This document shows positions 1,547-63,853 of a DNA stretch of 64,000 bases, in pieces. Below the pieces are notes generated by a model. It saw only the letters and a list, made by a program, of their open reading frames with translations. It did not search any database and was not told where the DNA came from. The stretch is from Dysidea avara. Its lineage: Eukaryota; Porifera; Demospongiae; Dictyoceratida; Dysideidae. The translations under genes were made by a program, and so were the position numbers. Position 1 is the stretch's first letter, and each line of letters opens with the position of its first letter. The stretch lies in contig NC_089284.1 in assembly GCF_963678975.1 (NCBI RefSeq), positions 2,169,001-2,233,000 on the forward strand, given 5' to 3'.

Positions 1547-4500
1547 ATGAGCACAGCAGACTGTGGGGTTAACTGTGAGATTTACGATGTCATTGTTGTA
1601 GGAGCAGGTGTACAAGGAAGTTCTACAGCTTTCAACATAGCCCGTAAAGGTCACACTCGATCGCTTCTCCTAGAACAAGTACGTATTCATTGTTTCGGGA
1701 AAAGTGCATTGTTAGATCAATTAGCACCAAAGTCGATCTTGAAACACCCCAGTCATTTCATTTAAAAAGAATACCAATATTAAATGCACAAACTTATGCA
1801 TGTATGTAGCTATCTCAACTTATACCAGTTGGGCACTAACAGAATACCACTAGCTTAGGAGCCAACAGGTGACACACAGGCACTCATTGTAAGTAGATCT
1901 GCAACCGCAGTCAAATTCTTTAAGTCACAGGTCAAGGCCACTGAATTCGTGCAAAGTCAACAGTCAAGAATAAAAATTTTCCAACCCACAATCAAAAAGT
2001 ACTGAAATATCATCGCTGAGTCACAGGTCAAAGATCGAATAAAGCTCTTAATCACAGCAAAATTTTGGCAGTTCAAGACTGACCGTGGTCGCAGATCTAC
2101 CTACAGGGCATACCTACGTAACACCCCCATGGAAGCCTAAGCGAAAATATTTGAGTAAAGTATGCTAGAGTGAAATGGGACAAGTGGATTGAAAAAGCCA
2201 ACCAATCATGACTTGGTCCACAGTCCGGCCAAGTGCCACACCTCATCCCAACCAGGAAGGCCACACCTAAGTAGGGAAATGTCATCAATGTGTTTCTAAT
2301 TTACCAGTTGGGCACAGAGGGAGGTCCTGTACGAGATGTTTACCAATAGCATGTGCATTACTGCTATTATTTGCAACTTATTTCCCTGTTATTCTACCAT
2401 AAATATAACCCCGTACTGGAGTTAGTATACTGGGATCAGTATATCTATGAGTCTGCTATTCTGTACACTTTCATTGTAACCTGAGAATCTATGGCATCGC
2501 ATGACTCATAAAGAACCAGCTTTCTGCCAATTCTTCAATGGCCTTGGGTATGTACATTTCCTGCCCTCTATCATTGATGAAAAGCATACTAAACACTTTA
2601 AATAAGTCACCAATACGTGGCGTTGAGCTTTGCAAAGTTGGCTTCACACTTTCATCAATCATGTTCATCACAAGAGAACAGCTGTTTACATTAAACTGAC
2701 AAATTGTAGATTTTCTTGTCTTGAGGTCAGTGAATTCATGACCCAGTACCTGACCATGATAAGGCCCAAAACCTTGAGTCTCGTGGTAAAACAGCTAGTG
2801 GAAGCTGGTCAAAATATTTGGACCCACATATAATTTATGTGAAATTAGTGTTCCACCGATAATCAGATTGGAGCCAACATTTGCTGTTGTAATAGAAATT
2901 CTATTCCGCCACTGATTAATAACGACTCACACAGATAATTATCATCATAAGTGCTATGCAGAATTTGGGGCATCATAGGCTGGAAATGGCATTGGGGCAA
3001 TATTCTGGGCACAGGATTTTTTTAGTTATGCATTGAATAACACCAACTGATCACATTTGCATTAAAAGATCAGGATACTCTAACAGAACAATCACCAAAA
3101 TATCCTAATAGAACAGTCACACATAGCTACGTGGAAGGTATGTAGTTACAAAATGGCCAATTACAAGACAATACAAGCAATATAGTATAACTATACACAA
3201 GCAAGTGCAATTATATGGTCAATATCAGCATCTGTATCAACATAGGTGCTGAGTGTATCAGTATCAGATTAGATTGGTATGTGCTGTATCAGCAGAACAC
3301 TAGTTGAAATGTTGAACACCATCCCAGGAGTATTTAAATTCCATCGGAGTGCATTTGAAAAATTAGTAGGATTCCAGCAATAAAAGATTGTGAAACGAGA
3401 TGTGAATGATGGCCAGATCTGTGAAAACCCAACACAATTGTGCAAGCCTAAATTTACAGTATAAAGCGTTGAATACAATAAGTGAAATACTTGCATATTA
3501 TTTTGAACACTTTGTTCTTAGTGAAGAAAGGGCCTAACAATAAAAACCTGAATATCAGTTTATTTGCCTACTCAAGAAGAGTTCGAGAATCTTTATTTTG
3601 TTGCAATACACTCAAGGATACAGATGTTATGGGCATATCTTTACATCACGTTGGAATGATGGTACGTAATCAATCTTTCTTTTTTCCTTTCTGTGTAGCA
3701 AAGAAAGGTGATATAAAGAAAAACATACCTAGTAATTTATTCTCCTACTCATGGCAAACACAATGGTGCAAATTTTAACTCTGTGCACATACGCCATTCT
3801 GCTCATAAGTTTCAACCATTTTAGTAAGTTATACTTGCTGTACAAATCACAATCTTTCTGTTGTTGCTACTTTGTAGGGCTGTAACTCCCAAAGTTATTG
3901 ACATATGAGGCTAAAACTGCCAGAGCATGCACTTGGCTAAGTAGATTATAACTATTCAATAAACAGGAATTTGAAAAATGCACAATTGTTTCACAGATGC
4001 GGTCACATTGGCATGTTTTCAAAGTAAAGATTTTCCCACCTAGCTATGTTGTAATAACTACCATCATTCACACCTCTTGTTTCGCTACATTTTATTGCTA
4101 CATTTTATCGCTACATTTTATTGCTACATTTTATCGTTAGTACCCTACTCCATTAATTGCATTGTAGTAGTGTTGTTTGTTAAGCTATCACGGATGTGAC
4201 TGTTTTATTAGAGTATTGCAATCCCCATCTCATATATCATGCAATAGAATAAGGACTAGGTGTTTTACGGACCTTGGGGTGTGGTTACTATGTCTACAGC
4301 AAAAACTGCAGTTGATGATTAATGGGCATAGTCATCATGATCAGATCTTGTAAGGGTGTGGCTGATCATTTAAGGGCCGGGTTGCTATGGGATCATTAAC
4401 ATGCAGTTACACATATCTACTCCCTCTTACAATAATGTAAGCAGTTCTAATGGTTTTGTGGCATTTAAACATGCTTCTCTAGGAAAGTATTGATAAGGAA

Positions 4501-7500
4501 AATTAATGCCTCTGTATGGTTTCCTTGCATTCAAAAGAAGACAACAGCATGATTAAAGATAAAAGGCACAAATGCTGTGTAACAGGCTGAACATAGCTGA
4601 AAACGAAGCGTAATGGCCACCTTGCTATTTCAGTAATTGATAGTTCGGGGGCAAGTTCAGACAAAAAACAATGAGCCTGGCACTATTCTTTCTGTTCTAA
4701 TGCAGTATGTGTGGGTTCAGTAATGTTACAAAAAGGTTAGCAAACAAGAATAAGGGAAAATTAAGGATATTAAAAGTGAAACAAGGTAGGTCATCTACAC
4801 CTGAAGGTATACTAGTGGACATTTTCATCCCTAGTGGGTATAGACTAAAGTAGGAATTAAATGTACGCTAGTATATCTTCAGGTGTAGGTGGCCTCCCTA
4901 CAATCCTAAATCGAACTTAAACTTATACTTGTTGTATTAGGATAGAGAATGTATTGTTACACTGGAAGTAAAATAAACTCATTTACTATGTAGTTTCAAC
5001 TGGGTCACACACATGGAAGCTCTCATGGTGGTAGTAGAATTATAAGGAGCTCCTACGATGTTCAACATTATGCTGAAATGATGCCTGAGGCATTTAAATT
5101 GTGGAAGGAGATTGAACAGGAAGCCGGAGTCCAGCTTTATTAGTGAGTAACTTACTCTGTTATGTATTTAGTTAATCACTACTTGTATGATAGTAATACA
5201 GGTGGCACTTTCTTTGGACATCCAGATTCTGCTATCAAATCCATAATTTGTCACTTTCAACAACTTGATCTTCCACATGAAGTGTTGTCTGCTAAAGAAG
5301 CTAATAGTCGATACAAATTTCTTAACCTTCCCAACAATTTCATTTGCGTTGTGGACAAAAGTGCTGGGATTCTGGCTGCCGACAGAGCTGTTAAAACACT
5401 ACAGGTAAGTGTGGCCTTTTACATAAGCTATATTATTTCATATATATTTTAAAGTCACTGTTCATCAAAAATGGTGGAAAGATAGTTGATAACTGCAAAG
5501 TAACTTCTATTCATCCTGGTGATGTTATTACCTTGAAAACTGACAAAGAAGATTTTAAGACTAGGAAAATTGTGCTGACTGCAGGTGTGTTGACTCTACA
5601 TAGGGAAAAGTTTGGTGAGAAAGAAAATTTGACAAATTGGCAACTTTCCTCAAGGTCACCAAGTTTATATTTTGCTATTATTGTTATATCTGTGTAAAAG
5701 CTACAGAGAGCCATATGTGGTGTACATTTCTATATAGATTTTTTATGTAAGGTACTTCTGCCACTACCCCACTACTGGTATTAGTTATTTAGTAGATTAA
5801 ACAATACACTAAGTACAGTAATTCATTAAGAGGAACTGTTACTCTCTTGAAGACTGTCTCTCACATGAGAGATGTAGATGTCCGGTCTCCACATCTCTTT
5901 TTCTAAATCTTGATGATCTGTGAAAATGGTGACTTTGTTGTTTCCCAAACTCTCATGAGTAGCTAAAAACTTCCAGTTCAGTTTTAAGCTCACACTCTCA
6001 CAAGTCTTTTTGAAGACTGTTTCTTACATATCCCTGAGTCCTGATACTGATTGATTTGGGTGTCCAGGCTCCACATTTGTAACAAAAGTTTTTGTCCTTG
6101 TATAGTATTTATAAATGTGTAATGGATGCAATTTAAGAAGGTGATTCAGCTAAAATTAAGTGTTTGAATTGGTACAAATACTTAAGGAGCCTTTTTTCTA
6201 CCAATTTACATAAGTATGATGTAGGTTCCCATCCAGATGTTTGGTAAGCTAGGAGGGATGGAGACTATTGTTCATTATTGAACATCTGAACTTTAGTCAG
6301 TGTTGCAAATGATTTTGTATTTGTTGTCAGCTTCCCACACATCATATTATGATATGTCTTAAATGCTAGGACCATGGACATCCAAACTACTGGTACCACT
6401 GGGACTCAAATTACCACTAACTCCAAAATTATGTGATGTGTACTATTGGCAAGTTGATCATCCAGAGTTGTGCACCATTGGAAGTAGTAGTCGTGAGATG
6501 GGTGTATTCAGCCAGTCATTAGAGAAAAACATCAGCTGTTATGGTCTACCATCATTTGAACATCCTGGCCTTGTAAAGGTTTGAAGTGTTATGTGCATTC
6601 CTGTTAATGATCATTAGGCTTGCGCCAATTATGCCGGCATAATTTTGAGCATAATAGGCTAGCAAAAGTATCAAGCATGATGCCAGCATAATAAGATGAT
6701 TTTCAAGAATTTTAATTAAAACACGTAATGCGCGCACCAAAAATACTTCACAATATGAACACACTGCACATTATTACTGCATTTCATATCAAAAAACCTT
6801 GCAATATTATTATTTTTACTATTCTTCACACTTTTATATGGAAATAAGATCAAGATACTGTAATAGAGCAGTCATTTACTCTAATACAGCAGTCAGGAAT
6901 GCAGATATACTCTAATAAAACAGTCAGCTCTAGTTCCAAACCCTACGTCACTACAAAGGGTAGAGGTGTCCTTTGATCTCAAGCATAATCTTGATTTTGA
7001 GAGCATAATAGGCAATTTTCAAAGCATAATTAGCTTAAGCCTAATGATCATATTTGACATTCTGTACAATAGCTGTGGTGCACAGCACACCATGTGTGTT
7101 TATTTGGGTTTTACTGGCCAAAAATCACCCAAAAACCATCTTGACAATACCATCCTGGCATCTTGGCAGTATTAGCTAAGTACAACCAAGCCCAACAGTG
7201 CCTTCAGTTTCAACCCTAAATGCTTCCAATAGATTGCTACAAATTTTTTTGAATTTTCTACTGACTGACTAACTGCTTGCCTGCCTGATGCCTTCAGACA
7301 AGCATAACTAGATAACAGCTAAGGCTATAGGCTTGATTTTTTCACTGTTTGATGTTGGTTCATCCCAAGATGTGCCTTTTGGCATACTGCAGTATGTACA
7401 ATGCGCACATCATGGACTAAACGTTGTCCTCCTTTGTGTCCAATTTCTTTATGCTGACAGTCAAAGGTGTCGATTCACGGTAGCATGATGGCTTCCCTAC

Positions 7501-29726: not shown

Positions 29727-29898
29727 ATTAGGGATCATGGAGATTCGGGTTTTTCTGGCCAAAAAAAAAAGAACAGCTTCACAAGACCATCCTGACACCT
29801 TAGCAGTATTGGTTAGGTATAACCAAGCCCAAAAGTATCTTCAGTACGACCATAAATGCTTCCAATAGATTGCTACAAAATTTTAAAAAAAATTTTTG
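29727..29898 (+). repeat. Family A 5' fragment
   Basis: TTAGGGATCATGGAGATTCG to AATAGATTGCTACAAAATTT matches the left end of the 7.1-kb copy (ACCAAGCCCAA, AAATGCTTCCAATAGATTGC). It is cut off where the next copy would read ACTGACTGACTAACTGC, and a minisatellite takes its place. Confidence 0.6.
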
Positions 29899-30182
29899 TG
29901 CCTGCCTGCCCTACCTGCCTGCCCTACCTGCCTGCCCTACCTGCCTGCCCTACCTGCCTGCCCTACCTGCCTGCCCTACCTGCCTGCCCTACCTGCCTGC
30001 CCTACCTGCCTGCCCTACCTGCCTGCCCTACCTGCCTGCCCTACCTGCCTGCCCTACCTGCCTGCCCTACCTGCCTGCCCTACCTGCCTGCCCTACCTGC
30101 CTGCCCTACCTGCCTGCCCTACCTGCCTGCCCTACCTGCCTGCCCTACCTGCCTGCCCTACCTGCCTGCCCTACCTGCCTGA
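29899..30182 (+). repeat. 13-bp minisatellite CCTGCCTGCCCTA, about 22 copies
   Basis: Nearly perfect head-to-tail copies of a 13-base unit. Because 13 is not divisible by 3 and the unit makes no stop codon, all three plus-strand frames stay open, producing Pro/Ala/Cys/Leu-rich translations that are not proteins. The array begins exactly where family A normally has a CTGCCTGCCTG-like sequence (compare 7273-7287), suggesting expansion from that seed. Confidence 0.95.
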
Positions 30183-30589
30183 CCACAGTTACAAGGCTGG
30201 AGGCCAAATGAAGCAGCACATGGCCATCATTTTATGCCACAATAACTTACCAGTGGCATATGCATTTTGGGGTTCCGACAAGTGTGTGCCCTCTGTGCCT
30301 TGTCTTTCCTCTTATCTTTAAGGCCACATAAATTTAATTATTAGTTTCTCATCCCCGCCCACATCGCCATTTTTCTCACCTCATCAAGGATTTTTTGTAC
30401 CACTGGTGGCTGAGTGCAGCCATCCAGCACGTTTAAAAGTTGGCATCTTGCTAGAGCATGCATTCTGAGTCATTTTAGCTAGCTAATTCAGCTATTTAGT
30501 TAGTAAAATAAAATAAAAATCCACCCTCCCGCACTGACATTTTGAATACAGGAGGATGAGAAACTAATAATTAAGTTTATGTGGCCTAA

Positions 30590-34965: not shown

Positions 34966-35812
34966 ATGTAGACCTATAATACAACTACCGGTACAAGTAT
35001 TACATTACTCATTACCTTGCTGTTCCAGCTGGTTGTTTATGAGCGCATCAGCTGGTATCCCAACTGGTCATCAGCTGGTCCTTCACTGCATGACGCCTGG
35101 AGCGCATATCCTGCACACAAAATACACAGTTACAAACATTTAAACATACTTGTAATGTTGTTGCTTACCAGTAAAGTGGCGCCTGGCCTCTCCGCGAACG
35201 TTTACTAATCTTCTCGTTCGAGCAATCTGTAATTAAACAAGGGCGTGGTGCCGGGCGTTATATAGAATTACACGTACGGTAAAATCATCAGCACTAACAG
35301 GCGTACTTATTATATGGTTGTGCCTTCATTCACAGGCGAATCTATCCCCGCTTAGACTATGATATAGCTCATTTAGAGGGTTACTAAATCACTTAGTCAC
35401 CTGACATGCTCATTTAGTCACCTACAGAGCAGTTTCAAAACCATGGTAATCAAAAATTACGCAATGGACACACCCAAATCGCCATGTTTTTGTACCAGAC
35501 TGTTTCATGTTGCAAGTTGAATTCCTCGCTAAATTCATGCCAAGACTTATTAATACGTAAGTAAAAGAGATGCCAGTGATAGAATAAAACATGTAGGTGA
35601 GTTATTACGCATTAAAAGATCTGTACTGCCTCCCAACAGGGTAGTTTCGTAGGAAGGAGAAATGCGTAAAGATGGATTTGGCCAAATTTCGACCTATTCA
35701 CCGCCCAAAGGTGGTTAAAACTAGGGGAAACCTGCAGTATAGGTCTTTATCCAGCACCACAGCATCGTACAGCTACATCGAGCTATCCCCGAGTTAGCCA
35801 GAATCGCTCATG

Positions 35813-36072
35813 TGCTGGGATTCCGAGGGGTCCGCCACTCAGGATTATGATCGACGTGATTCGGAATCACCGCGTAATTCCAGTTGATTCCTAGATTCCG
35901 AACGTTGAATCCTCTGATTCCTCTAATTCTGCCAGCGATTCCTCGCGATTCCTTTATTCCGTCTAATTCCAAAAGGGATTCCTATAATTCCATATGATTC
36001 TAATAATTCCGGCTGATTCCAAGACTGATTCTGTAATTCCAAGTTGATTCCACGATTCCCTAGAATGGATTC
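35813..36072 (+). repeat. Irregular GATTCC/AATTCC array, left part
   Basis: About 21 occurrences of ATTC, nearly all as GATTCC or AATTCC, in 260 bp with irregular 8-14-bp spacing. The same motif on the same strand resumes at 38217-38300 (GTTGATTCCGC, CAGATTCCC, ATAATTCC, ATGATTCC), so the array was probably one block before the LINE-bearing insertion split it. Confidence 0.8.
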
Positions 36073-36329
36073 TGTACTATAGGCAAGCCAGAATGGTGAC
36101 TATCACAGTGTATCACTTTAGCTACCTCTGCTGAACCTACTGGTGAGTATTGAAGTCATGTTAAGTTCCACCCGGCATGGACTCGGGCCGCTGCGAAATT
36201 CGCTGGCAATAGCCTATTTTTATTTATTTATTTTATCATTACTGGGCAGGCAGCTCTATATTTCTGCTTCTGGCAAAAGTGTCAGTGGACACCGTCACAA
36301 CACTAGCTAACCCTGATGAAAGACCTTAA

Positions 36330-37695
36330 ACTGGACCACATCTTTCCTGACTGGACGTACACAGAGTGTTGTGTGTGGTGGTTGCACTTCCACCCCCTGT
36401 GATGTTTTGAGTGGTGTCCCACAAGGTTCTGTACTAGGGCCTCTGCTATTTTTTACGTACATAAATGATATCAATATGCTACTCGTACTACACAGCTATT
36501 TGCACAGCCACCAAGATGTAGAGTTTCTTTTACTCAAAAGCATTTTAGATCTCAAGCTGCCCACTGGTGGAATGCAGTTCCTAACGACATGTTAACATCT
36601 CCAACTTTTCAGGACGATTTATTTTCTTAATTGTGTAAAATTTGTTGATGATTTTTATGTTTGTAAATTGTTTGCTTAATTGTTTTGTATGTGCTATGTG
36701 TGTGTTGTAATTTTTTGTTCAGTCTTTGTGTGTGTGCAGTTGTAATTTATATGTGTATATGTATGCTATTTTTGTGTTTCCTCCTCAGTCAGGGAAGAAC
36801 GGCATTGCCGACTGACTTGAGGCTAATTTAAAAATCAAATCAATCAATCAATCAAATCGATATCAATAACGAATTAAGTTCTATTTGTCGCTTATACGCT
36901 GATGACTGCATTCTATATAGGAGAATTGATAGTTTAACAGATGTTAAAGATCTGCAAGATGATTTACAGATATTGGAGCTATGGGATAAAAAGTGGAAAA
37001 TGTCTTTCAATGTTGACAAATGTGTGGTATCTATAACTCTTAAACGAAACCCTATATACTCCAGTTACCACCTTCATGGAGAACAACTTACTGTGGTTCA
37101 GTGTGCCAAGTACCTGGGAGTCTCAATTGATTCAAAATTATCTTTTAACCAACATGTGGACAATGTGTGCAAAAAGGAAACTCTGTATTAAGTTTTGTGA
37201 GGAGAAATTTTGCAAACTGCTCCTGTAAAATCAAAGAATCGACCTGTTTCTTACTTACGTCAAGCCCACAATGGAATATGCAGCTGCAGCATGGGATCCT
37301 TATAGCAGACGGTCAAAAAACAAACTTGAGTCTGTGCAAAGATGTGCAGCTTGCTTTGTAATGAATGATTAATATCAAACCAGCAGTGTATCAAACATGT
37401 TATCACGTCTTAACTCGAGCACCATTGAAACTCATTTCAAACATTTAAGGCTTCAGATGTTCCATAAAATTGTTCATAGCATTGCGGATGTATCACTTCC
37501 TGATTATATAGCTCATAGATCAAGGTATACCAGAAGTAGTGAACTTAAATTTATACAGCCAGACACAGCTATTGATTCTTATAAATACAGTTTCTTTCCT
37601 GCTTCTATTTGATTGTGGAACACTCTACCTTGTGATATAAATTGTGACAATATAGATACTTTTAAGGAACTTCTGAAACATATTACATTGTAATT
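36330..37695 (+). pseudogene. Dead non-LTR retrotransposon (LINE) reverse transcriptase fragment
   Basis: The plus strand encodes pieces of a Jockey/CR1-type reverse transcriptase: VLSGVPQGSVLGPLLF and YINDI (36410-36470), then after an insertion LYADDCILYR with the catalytic YADD box (about 36890-36930), FNVDKCVV, AKYLGVSIDSKLSFNQHV (37108-37160), EYAAAAWDPYSRRSKNK and RLNSSTIETHFKHLRLQMFH (37400-37460). Frameshifts near 37170 and 37240, in-frame stops near 37370 and 37610, and a missing 5' half make it inactive. It lies inside the foldback-like element. Confidence 0.85.
36476..36858 (+). mobile_element. 5'-truncated LINE 3' end nested in the LINE above
   Basis: A 383-bp insertion splits the reverse transcriptase after YINDI. 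It is flanked by a perfect 9-bp target duplication, GATATCAAT, at 36467-36475 and 36859-36867; the host frame reads on as NDI-NNELSS when the insert is ignored. The insert encodes a LINE ORF C terminus (AAHWWNAVPNDMLTSPTF, about 36553-36606), then a T/G-rich 3' UTR with GTCAGGGAAGAACGGC and a terminal (AATC)n tail. Confidence 0.88.
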
Positions 37696-38892
37696 TATTT
37701 TTATAGCTTATATTTGTAGCCTCATGATTTTACATCTATATTGTAATATACTCACCCATATGAGTTCTGTAATAATCATAGTAAGAATGTATTGCAACTC
37801 ATTAACAAGCTAGTTAGCTAAGGGTTAGTATAAGTCTCGTTGGGAACACAGGATCAGGGCCCCACTGAGAACTTGTAGGAGCTGTTATTGAAAATTGTTA
37901 GATTACAGGATGTTCTGGAATCCGGGAAACCTCGATCCAACAGCCAGCTGACGGAGAATAAATTAGCTAGTATATAGTGGCTGTAGTTAGCTGCTTCTGC
38001 GACGGCTCGCACTCACTCGCGAATACTTAAACCTCACTAGAAACGCACAGGAACACTCACTGTAATACACGTAGGCGTATACACAAAGTGTAAAACCAGG
38101 TGCAAAACAAGTGAGAGTTAGCGTCTTTAACTTATGAGTGTGTTATACTGTGTTAAACAGTAATTTACGATATAATTTTCATAACATTTATTTCAAAATA
38201 TTTCTAATTACAAAGTTGATTCCGCTTCAGATTCCCATAATTCCATGATTCCTTGATTGATTCCAGTGATTCCTGAGGTCTTCGACGTGATTCCGAATCG
38301 TGGCGGACCCCTCGTGGGATTCACTTCGTGTGAAAAATCAGACAGCAAAATAAGACCGCTAAAGTTTAACTGATGGTTGATTTCGACAATAAAACTTAAC
38401 TCTAGCAAAATTCACCACTAAGAGTCTTCTTTTGCTGGCGTTTTATCACAGTTTGGTAGTACGCCATTACCGGTCTCGTGCCTTTCAGGAGCTCTGGCTA
38501 ATCCTGGGATAGCTGGATGTGGCTGTACGCTGCTGTGGTGCTGGGTAAAGACCTATACTGTAAGTTTCCCCTAGTTTTAACTACCTTTGGACGGTGAATA
38601 GGTCGTAATTTGGCCAAATCCATTTTTACGCATTTCTCTTTCCTTCGAAACTGCCCTGTTGGGAGGCAGTATGTATCTTTTAATGCCTAATAACTCACCT
38701 GCACATTTTATTCTATCACTGGCATCTATTTTACTCATGAATTAATAAGTCTTGGCATGGATTTAACGAGGAATTCAACTTGCAACATCAACCAATCTGG
38801 TACAAAAACATGGCGATTTGGGTGTGGTCCATTGCGTAATTTTTGGTTACCATGGTTTTGAAACTGCTCTACACATGTTCATTTAGTAACCC

Positions 38893-39180
38893 GCCCTCAG
38901 GCAATTTTGTACGTGAAAAATAATTATAACACGAAAGATATACTATAGTACTTGATTATACTGTAATACAATTCTTCTCCGTGTTCTGCGAATAATTCTG
39001 GAGAAATAGTAGACTAAGCGGCATATCTACTATAGTTCTAGCCGTTACTTTGGTTACCGGTCGAATAATTGGTTTTGTGGGCGCTGTAAGGACTTCAGGA
39101 AGAAACTGTTCTGCTGTTCTGCATTGCTCTTTCACCCCACACTCATGCTCTGGCTATAAAGGTACGTACTTTAAACTATA
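38893..39180. other. Spacer, nothing recognised
   Basis: Short AT-rich interval between the foldback-like element and the next palindrome. No exon or repeat boundary recognised. Confidence 0.3.
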
Positions 39181-39343
39181 GTCTAAATAAGTTAGACACC
39201 GCGACCAACGGGAACTAAGCGATTTAGTAACCCCTCTGGCCCTTAGTAGCGCCCTCACTGCGCTCGGGACGCTACAGCCTCGGGCCATCAGGATTACTAA
39301 ATCGCTTAGTTCCCTTGGTCTTGGTGTCTAACTATTATTTAGT
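39181..39343. mobile_element. Palindromic MITE with GC-rich loop
   Basis: GTTAGACACCGCGACCAACG, GGAACTAAGCGATTTAGTAA and CTGGCCC on the left are mirrored by GGGCCATCAGGATTACTAAA, TCGCTTAGTTCCCTTGG and TGGTGTCTAAC on the right. The 40-base centre (CGCCCTCACTGCGCTCGGGA) is GC-rich. The GATTTAGTAACCCC step echoes the termini of the 35378-38892 element. Confidence 0.75.
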
Positions 39344-40094
39344 TCATGTCTCTAGGCCTTGTAGTTTTCTCAAACATTATTTATTTATTTATTTATTCAT
39401 TCATTATTAATGACATAATTTTAACCGCATTTCGTATTATTCTTACTACTTGGTTGTATAATTATTCATAATATTATTTTGTTTCACTCATGTACAGCAA
39501 AAGTTATCCACTTTTTTGTGCTAAAAACTATATAGCCATGCTTACCTGAGTCCTTCATGTCCATGACCTATTTTTGATTTTGTTTTCGGATGGAAACAGC
39601 CCAAACCAGGCCGTTTCTTCTTACCAAAATGCCATTACGCTCAAGAAGCCATACAAGATCGCACTAAAAGTTATGAGTTTTGGTGTGCGCTGCTTGTGGC
39701 TAATAGAATATGTCTTTATTAGACTCAGTATAGGTCAGGAAGCTTAATCTGGGCTGATGACTTTGTTGCAGGGTGGTTTTTTCCGCTCCGTGATTATTGT
39801 ACGTGGGCGGGTTATCCAGATTAAATACTCTAATAGAGCAGTCATGTAAATACTCTAATAATGCAGTCAAGTGTATAACAACAATCCTTGCACTGAATTT
39901 GACAGCTATTAAAGGCACCAGTAATGTGAATTGTAGCTCATATTAGGAGACTCTCAGTCTGTATGCACACTGCAATTTGATCAGTTTCATGTGTGTACTG
40001 AAATGTTGATGGTGTTACTATGCAGAATGCAAAATTACACTATTCACAATTGTCTTCTTCATAATCCATTACTGGATTAATAAAAAGTACACAA

Positions 40095-42338: not shown

Positions 42339-42821
42339 TCATGAGCACATCCTGGCTACAAAATCCTCAAAATTAATTTGCCCGTCGCCATCCACGTCGG
42401 CTTCTCTTATCATCTCCTCCACTTCCTCTTCTGTAAGCTTCTGATCACCCAAGTTCATCATCACGTGCCGCAATTCTGCAGCACTGATAAAACCATTGGC
42501 ATCCTTGTCAAATACCCTAAATGCGTCCACGATATCTTCTTGTACATTTGCGCTGGATTCTTTTATTTTGCGGGACATCATGACTAGAAACAGTTTAAAG
42601 TCTATTAATCCGTTTCCATCAGCGTCGTGCTCCACTTCACCTTCAAAAGCTCGCAGTTCTGCCTCTGTGGGGTTTAGGCCTAGAGTACGCATGACTATGC
42701 CTAGGTGTTTAGTGGATATCATACCAACTTCGTCTTTGTCATACAGGGAGAATGTTTCTTTGAAATGAGCAATCTGTTCTTGACTTAAATCGCTAAAGCC
42801 GTCAGCTATCGCGTCTGCCAT
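42339..42821 (-). CDS. Calmodulin-like four-EF-hand protein, 160 residues
   Basis: Calcium sensor of the calmodulin/troponin C superfamily, presumably cytosolic. The CDS is uninterrupted. Loops: EF1 at residues 28-39 ([12 protein letters not shown]), EF2 66-77 ([12 protein letters not shown]), EF3 105-116 ([12 protein letters not shown]), EF4 142-153 ([12 protein letters not shown]). Only EF3 has the canonical Glu at loop position 12; EF1 has His, EF2 Leu and EF4 Asp, so calcium binding should be weighted to the C-terminal lobe. The ATG at 42821 has an ideal context (ACTATGG). The same frame is open 20 codons further upstream, to a splice acceptor at 42881/42882, and would add a Lys-rich stretch ([15 protein letters not shown]) if translated from an earlier exon. 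Too diverged to be the canonical calmodulin. A decayed sister copy lies 1.4 kb upstream. Confidence 0.9.
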
Positions 42822-43514
42822 AGTTAATTCTTTCTGCTCAGCTTTCTGGACAGATTTCTTCTTGCCTTTCTGAGCAGCAGCCTACAGAATACGACCACAA
42901 AAAGAACATTCGTGATGACCATTGGTTTTGTGTCTCACCATATTTCATGGATCACTTCTGTCACGTTTGCTTGTAGTAAACACATACACCATGCAGTGTC
43001 TTGCCACGCCTCTCACTGTATGCCTCGTATACCACCGTAAAATCTGCATTTACAGCTTGGCTACGCGAGAGTGTTAACTAGTCTGTTACGCAACTAGCTA
43101 TATAGAGTGACGAGTCTCGCACCACTTCGATTTTACCTGTCTGAGTGTTTGGTCAATTGGGGAAGCCCGGATAAAGCGGATAATAACGACAGACAGGAAG
43201 AACTCCAGCTCCCTCTATTGAATTAAACAAAATACAACTGTTAGAAACGGTTTACCACGAAAGTTTGCTAGGCGCCAACTTCTCCAGCAACTGTCTGTGA
43301 CTTTGTGGAAATACAATGCAAAAATGATACTCCGCCAGTATTCGCTTACTGCTGAGGACGAATTTCCTGACTTTGACATTGGTTAAGTTAAGTACGTATA
43401 GGTAGTAATAAGTATATAGTTAGGTAATAAGTAGTAGTATGTTGTAGTTTTCAGTATGTAATATTATGGCTTCAAATGCATGTAGGAGTCGCATGTCACT
43501 GAGCCAGGAAAGTA

Positions 43515-55995: not shown

Positions 55996-63853
<7,858 letters not shown>

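Follow-up and report, generated by a model that had tools for sequence, protein, structure and literature searches.

The window analyzed here, a 64,000-bp stretch of DNA from the sponge Dysidea avara (C13:2169001-2233000), contains three pieces of repetitive DNA set one inside another. A palindromic repeat (A) lies within a second repeat (D), and a transposon (B) interrupts A and carries a probable remnant of a reverse transcriptase (RT). The initial annotation had taken the inverted arms of A and the GATTCC motif arrays of B for one foldback-like element, split by a long interspersed nuclear element (LINE). Comparison with other loci in the genome (550.8 Mb in 108 contigs) shows that the seemingly novel hybrid is a stack of successive insertions, in which the elements are nested and B forms a single unit. 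The stack was built by insertion of A into D and of B into the center of A, and B in turn carries an old LINE-like (RT) fragment and a small insertion of its own.

Element A is a palindromic repeat of ∼950 bp, present on the plus strand as a left arm that starts with AGAGCAGTTTC (35426..35823) and an unpaired center plus right arm that ends with GAAACTGCTCT (38323..38870), both delimited by arm pairing and genome copies. The annotated high similarity of the arms is confirmed, as positions 35469-35802 pair with 38493-38826 (334 nt, 90%), positions 35426-35469 pair with 38827-38870 (44 nt, 98%), and BLAST aligns the arms over 378 bp at 91%. An unpaired stretch of ∼170 bp forms the center. When the genome was searched with the left arm, 671 first-look candidates came up; the 40 that were scored match at 96-100% identity, and the 39 other than the window at 96-99%. 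Because all 39 begin at query base 42-49, the first ∼45 query bases, including GGGTTACTAAAT, lie outside A. The arms thus start at 35426 (AGAGCAG), and GGGTTACTAAAT, annotated as the arm end, belongs to flanking repeat D.

We read the loci of 28 of the 40 scored matches, eight as delivered by the search and 20 extracted from their coordinates; one of them (L001) corresponds to the window, truncated ahead of the right arm. In all 27 others the arms meet directly at or near CTGGGATTCCCACTTCG, with no intervening array. Both ends of A were found in 23 of these 27 loci, with lengths of 948-954 bp in 22 and 914 bp in one. The left flank reads WAT|AGAGCAG in all 23 two-ended copies and the right flank CTGCTCT|ATW in 22, fitting a WATATW target. 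In a test for a Tc1/mariner-type TA duplication, these flanks fit WATATW, yet the window copy has TACA on both sides of its GAGCAG...CTGCTC. Two A copies on C6, L010 and L011, lie ∼160 kb apart and have identical short left and right flanks, which is likely the result of a segmental duplication.

The repeat that surrounds A is represented by a left piece, which carries GGGTTACTAAAT (35352..35425; L005 3088-3015 by BLAST), and a right piece (38871..39349; window 38869-39349 corresponds to L005 3018-2536). Both match one unbroken stretch of L005 (2536-3088), at 100% and 94%, and the opposite strand of that locus has the uninterrupted target, CACCTACACATG. Since the D pieces are contiguous in L005 and A is absent there, A was inserted into D, as judged from this one other D locus. 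Within D, at 39190-39333, lies a short near-palindrome of ∼144 bp, AGTTAGACACC...GGTGTCTAACT, that resembles a small inverted-repeat element.

Transposon B occupies 2491 bp (35824..38314, plus strand) and is organized as terminal inverted repeat (TIR), array, RT remnant, array and TIR, a unit that recurs in other loci. Its left TIR, CGAGGGGTCCGCCAC (15 bp; 35824..35838, plus strand), and its right TIR, GTGGCGGACCCCTCG (38300..38314, minus strand), are common to the copies. The limits of B are set by an 8-bp target duplication, TGGGATTC, present within A at 35816-35823 and again at 38315-38322. A search with the left array (query 35806-36075) gave 50 candidates, of which 40 were scored, at 90-100% identity, and 30 loci were returned. 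Among the 39 non-window matches, 38 start between query bases 16 and 24 and the other at base 8, that is, at ∼35824, and the copies have CGAGGGGTCCGCCAC in common, with left flanks that differ among them.

Twenty of these loci were read over 4.5 kb each and, with the window, provide 21 B copies that are pairwise 97-100% identical. Both ends are present in 19 of the 21, 2331-3593 bp apart, and every one of the 19 is flanked by a perfect 8-bp target duplication; L063 and L075 yielded no right end. A second B resides in another copy of A (L021, one of the 27 and the same locus as L064), in the right arm, 329 bp along the segment beginning at the center of A. This B has its own duplication, TTCGAAAC, beyond which A sequence resumes. 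Because B has inserted at two different places within A copies, the two are separate elements. Two B copies abut at C9:26610002 and 26612493 (L050 ∼1490-1512) as GTGGCGGACCCCTCGAGGGGTCCGCCAC, with CG in common and no duplication between them.

The middle of B contains a weak match to reverse transcriptase (RVT_1; 36877..37128, plus strand; E=1e-4, 22.6 bits against a cut-off of 29.6 bits). The RT region is present, in whole or in part, in 29 of the 30 array loci, in 24 cases within the locus itself and in five (L033-L036 and L045) in a longer stretch or at its edge; the available sequence of the remaining locus, L056, ends before this region. B has therefore spread together with the RT remnant, and a dead LINE-like fragment has been multiplied as the cargo of a DNA transposon. 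The proposal that a LINE inserted locally and split the array is ruled out as stated by the same count, since the array-RT-array block recurs as a unit. The only later insertion within B is an inner 383-bp piece (36476..36858), flanked by GATATCAAT at 36467-36475 and 36859-36867. It is present in 19 of the 21 B copies; L071 and L075 lack it and have the site once, with one base changed, and BLAST coverage indicates that it is also absent from L057.

The arrays consist of the hexamer RATTCY, which occurs 19 times in 35812-36072 and seven times in 38210-38330, in agreement with the same-strand motif arrays of the initial annotation. The left subterminal array (35876..36073) and the right one (38218..38294) both read on the plus strand, and the ends of B are thus not mirror images. 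Bases 16-250 of B contain 18 RATTCY, whereas 5000 mononucleotide shuffles averaged 0.4 and never exceeded 4. Across 19 B copies there are 16-18 motifs on the left and 6-7 on the right, with one opposite-strand motif on the left and none on the right. In the window, neighboring motifs mostly lie 8-12 bp apart, with occasional jumps near 20; when gaps from one B and one X copy (X being a related family, described below) are pooled, 40 of 48 measure 7-12 bp and six measure 19-22 bp, with a median of 10.

The terminal repeat of B is shared, nearly unchanged, by several families (CGAGGGGTCCG terminal repeats). The exact 15-bp TIR occurs at 97 forward and 82 reverse places in the genome (179 in all; backward control, 0), and the variant CGAGGGGTCCGTNAC at 91 and 99 places (control, 8 and 9). 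We listed 200 of these 369 places, the first 100 for each sequence, which cover C1 to part of C6. Pairing them within a limit of 30 kb yields 76 convergent pairs, up to 9417 bp long, and leaves 48 unpaired TIRs; nine of the pairs measure 600-660 bp, 13 measure 700-760 bp and 18 measure 2440-2560 bp. Reading 600 bp at 20 exact-TIR places revealed four B (two left and two right ends), eight X and eight Y, where X starts with CACGCTTTAAATCT and Y with CACGACCTTAAAATCC, both counted from the last three TIR bases. A further family, Z, comprises the nine pairs of 600-660 bp, each bounded on both sides by CGAGGGGTCCGTNAC, and is known from positions only.

Perfect 8-bp duplications flank all seven of the eight X copies that were read at length (2441-4542 bp) and the one Y copy read at length (730 bp). 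The X arrays are built from a different hexamer, RAATCY instead of RATTCY, with 18 left and 8 right sites that share one strand and recur about once per helical turn. In the X copy L099, AATCT occurs 15 times on the plus and once on the minus strand at the left end, and eight times on the plus and once on the minus strand at the right end; with AATCC included the sites number 18 and 8, and their spacing is like that of B. The X consensus has 15 RAATCY from eight left ends and eight from seven right ends. Sites in Y are fewer and less regular than those of B and X. In all B, X and Y copies examined, the arrays are co-directional and not mirror-imaged.

Longer members of these families were considered as possible autonomous forms. 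The X copy L105 (4542 bp, in a 5-kb locus) has an addition of ∼2 kb in which a six-frame comparison with Pfam found no match at E 0.1, and the locus has no stop-to-stop frame above 77 amino acids. Three long Y copies (L080, L084 and L095; 4.8-5.1 kb) were rejected as autonomous forms because, within their left 600 bp, they leave Y after 96, 179 or 299 bp, and the sequence beyond resembles, on reading, LINE 3′ ends. Departure at three different points into such sequence indicates that they are probably Y copies with insertions, and these elements may be frequent insertion targets. Next to the X copy in L099, positions 4301-6112 hold a 604-codon open frame that reads like a reverse transcriptase.

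B is probably a non-autonomous transposon that moves by a cut-and-paste mechanism, with the arrays as putative binding sites. No intact gene was seen in B. Its 15-bp TIRs would be cut by a transposase supplied in trans, and the RATTCY arrays would bind that transposase or a partner protein cooperatively, at about one site per helical turn; the position, density and helical spacing of the arrays fit subterminal binding sites. Non-autonomous TIR transposons with subterminal repeats are an already known kind of element. According to PMC3260210, Ac/Ds elements combine 8-bp duplications with short TIRs, their terminal 200 bp contain AAACGG hexamers to which transposase binds cooperatively, and non-autonomous Ds2 copies carry unrelated filler DNA. 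B is like Ac and Ds2, as presented there, in its 8-bp duplication, its short TIR, the hexamers repeated within ∼200 bp of each terminus, and its filler DNA. It is unlike them in its hexamer (RATTCY rather than AAACGG), in the length of its TIR CGAGGGGTCCGCCAC (15 bp, versus 11 bp in Ac), in its LINE-like filler, in having same-strand arrays at both ends, and in that no autonomous partner was found.

Other systems offer partial parallels. In PMC10368747, Hermes has 17 left and 14 right short sites that are read as BED-finger sites, three left-end sites being seen bound and right-end sites not; the motif is AAGT, mostly antisense in the first left sites and sense in the first right ones. Relative to that description, B likewise has many short sites per end, asymmetric between the ends, but it has 18 and 7 of them, with all motifs but one on one strand. 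The CACTA/EnSpm element Tgmt, as described in PMC2613891, also has asymmetric subterminal repeat regions whose motif varies between related families, for which co-evolution with the binding protein was suggested. In contrast to B, Tgmt as described there has a 3-bp duplication, CACTA ends and repeats that are both direct and inverted. Zisupton (KDZ) shares the 8-bp duplication, according to PMC12730594, whereas no KDZ domain lies inside the B-group TIR pairs listed on C1-C6.

Among several possible sources of transposase for B, we tentatively favor a hAT-like (Ac/Ds-like) enzyme, at slightly less than an even chance. An 8-bp duplication, expected of hAT elements and also of KDZ/Zisupton, was found in 19 of 19 B, seven of seven X and the single Y copy, and B has subterminal repeats near both TIRs, which are common, though not universal, among hAT elements. 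Several observations weigh against this account of B, its enzyme and its arrays. The TIRs of hAT elements usually begin with CA or TA, and the 15-bp TIR of B begins with CG. The Hermes preference for nTnnnnAn is not seen in the B duplications, where T at position 2 occurs in six of 19 and A at position 7 in three of 19. Motif positions are not clearly better conserved than linkers: substitutions number 12/2454 versus 18/2046 in B, 5/720 versus 11/910 at X left ends, 2/324 versus 6/233 at X right ends, and 8/288 versus 4/360 in Y, four separate tests that are all non-significant, with Y in the opposite direction. Post hoc pooling gives p=0.013 for B and X and p=0.084 for B, X and Y, values that we do not count as evidence because the pooling was done after the fact and the copies are not independent.

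Also unfavorable is that no transposase was tied to the TIR: none of the 19 KDZ, 93 hAT and 74 listed P-like matches on C1-C6 is enclosed by a listed TIR pair, in a test that extends from C1 to part of C6, so that two KDZ, five hAT and six P-like matches on C6 lie beyond the end of the exact-TIR list, and in which TIRs with other changes were not sought. The 19 KDZ matches belong to 39 in the genome, and the one closest to a listed TIR is 13.5 kb away. The hAT result, obtained with the dimerization domain, is a weak test, as 150 of 1875 candidates were scored; for P-like RNase H, 150 of 447 were scored. One hAT match (C5:3549784) is 1.9 kb from an unpaired TIR, on the TIR's outer side. Six P-like matches fall within 45 kb of a TIR, one of them (C6:10874151) 19 kb inward of an unpaired TIR, and the KDZ and P-like near misses are probably due to chance. 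The hAT match outside the unpaired CGAGGGGTCCGTAAC spans C5:3549784-3551653 and is the sole one of the 93 within 20 kb of a listed TIR.

It is quite possible, if somewhat short of probable, that B is instead a non-autonomous element that uses the same array logic but belongs to a different superfamily, either one characterized by 8-bp duplications (P, Zisupton/KDZ, Merlin or MULE) or one not yet described. Such a duplication also fits superfamilies besides Zisupton, including P, Merlin and MULE, and the TIR start CGAGGGG is atypical of hAT. The Zisupton duplication is that given in PMC12730594. KDZ and P-like domains are present in the genome; against this alternative, none of those listed on C1-C6 (0 of 19 and 0 of 74) lies in a listed TIR pair, in a comparison for which Merlin and MULE were not searched.

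We consider it improbable that the arrays are regulatory DNA of the element, such as a promoter, an enhancer or sites for silencing factors. Regulatory function would account for their sharing one strand at both ends, as they do in every copy of B, X and Y examined. However, both arrays lie directly inside the TIRs in B and X, no intact gene was seen in B, and in position and density the sites are similar to those that PMC3260210 and PMC10368747 describe in the subterminal regions of Ac and Hermes.

It also appears unlikely that B, X, Y and Z represent a DNA transposon superfamily not yet described, or a separate branch of hAT, with polar ends. Such ends would be marked by one-strand hexamer arrays (∼18 sites on the left and 7-8 on the right in B and X) with near-helical phasing, and by a hexamer switched from RATTCY to RAATCY in both arrays between sister families while the TIR stayed nearly unchanged. 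If so, the specificities for cutting and for array binding would evolve separately.

Co-directional arrays combined with a motif switch between families that have nearly one TIR are, to our knowledge, an unreported variant, and searches of titles found none on B-group families. The group is fairly young, and nearly one TIR with two fully rewritten arrays constitutes a natural experiment on change in binding specificity.

Least tenable is the foldback-type element of the initial annotation, with arms and GATTCC array together and the array split here by a LINE: inverted arms do flank one-strand arrays in the window, but all 27 other arm copies lack an array between the arms, array copies elsewhere lie in unrelated flanks with their own TIRs and 8-bp duplications, the array element in L021 sits at another place within A, and the RT region is present, in whole or in part, in 29 of 30 array loci, so that we judge it very improbable, and an array loop in particular is ruled out by the empty center of A and by B copies outside A. 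Foldback elements have inverted arms made of tandem repeats. A is like them in its long inverted arms and unlike them in that no tandem repeat was found inside its arms and its center is the ∼170-bp unpaired stretch, not an array.

The annotation had recommended genome searches with one arm and with the array, and held that arms shared with no other locus would speak against its view. The arms do prove repetitive elsewhere, although without the array, and the array search returned not the foldback copies expected but arrays with TIRs and duplications of their own. Its more general suggestions, of mobile DNA with a LINE-derived middle and a possible protein-binding array, are upheld, and like that analysis ours found no transposase.

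Elsewhere in the window, long simple arrays at 29804-30321 and 61846-62327 produce open frames of LPALPACPTC and LTHS repeats. On the minus strand, positions 42339-42881 contain a 180-codon open frame that reads like an EF-hand protein of the calmodulin/centrin type.

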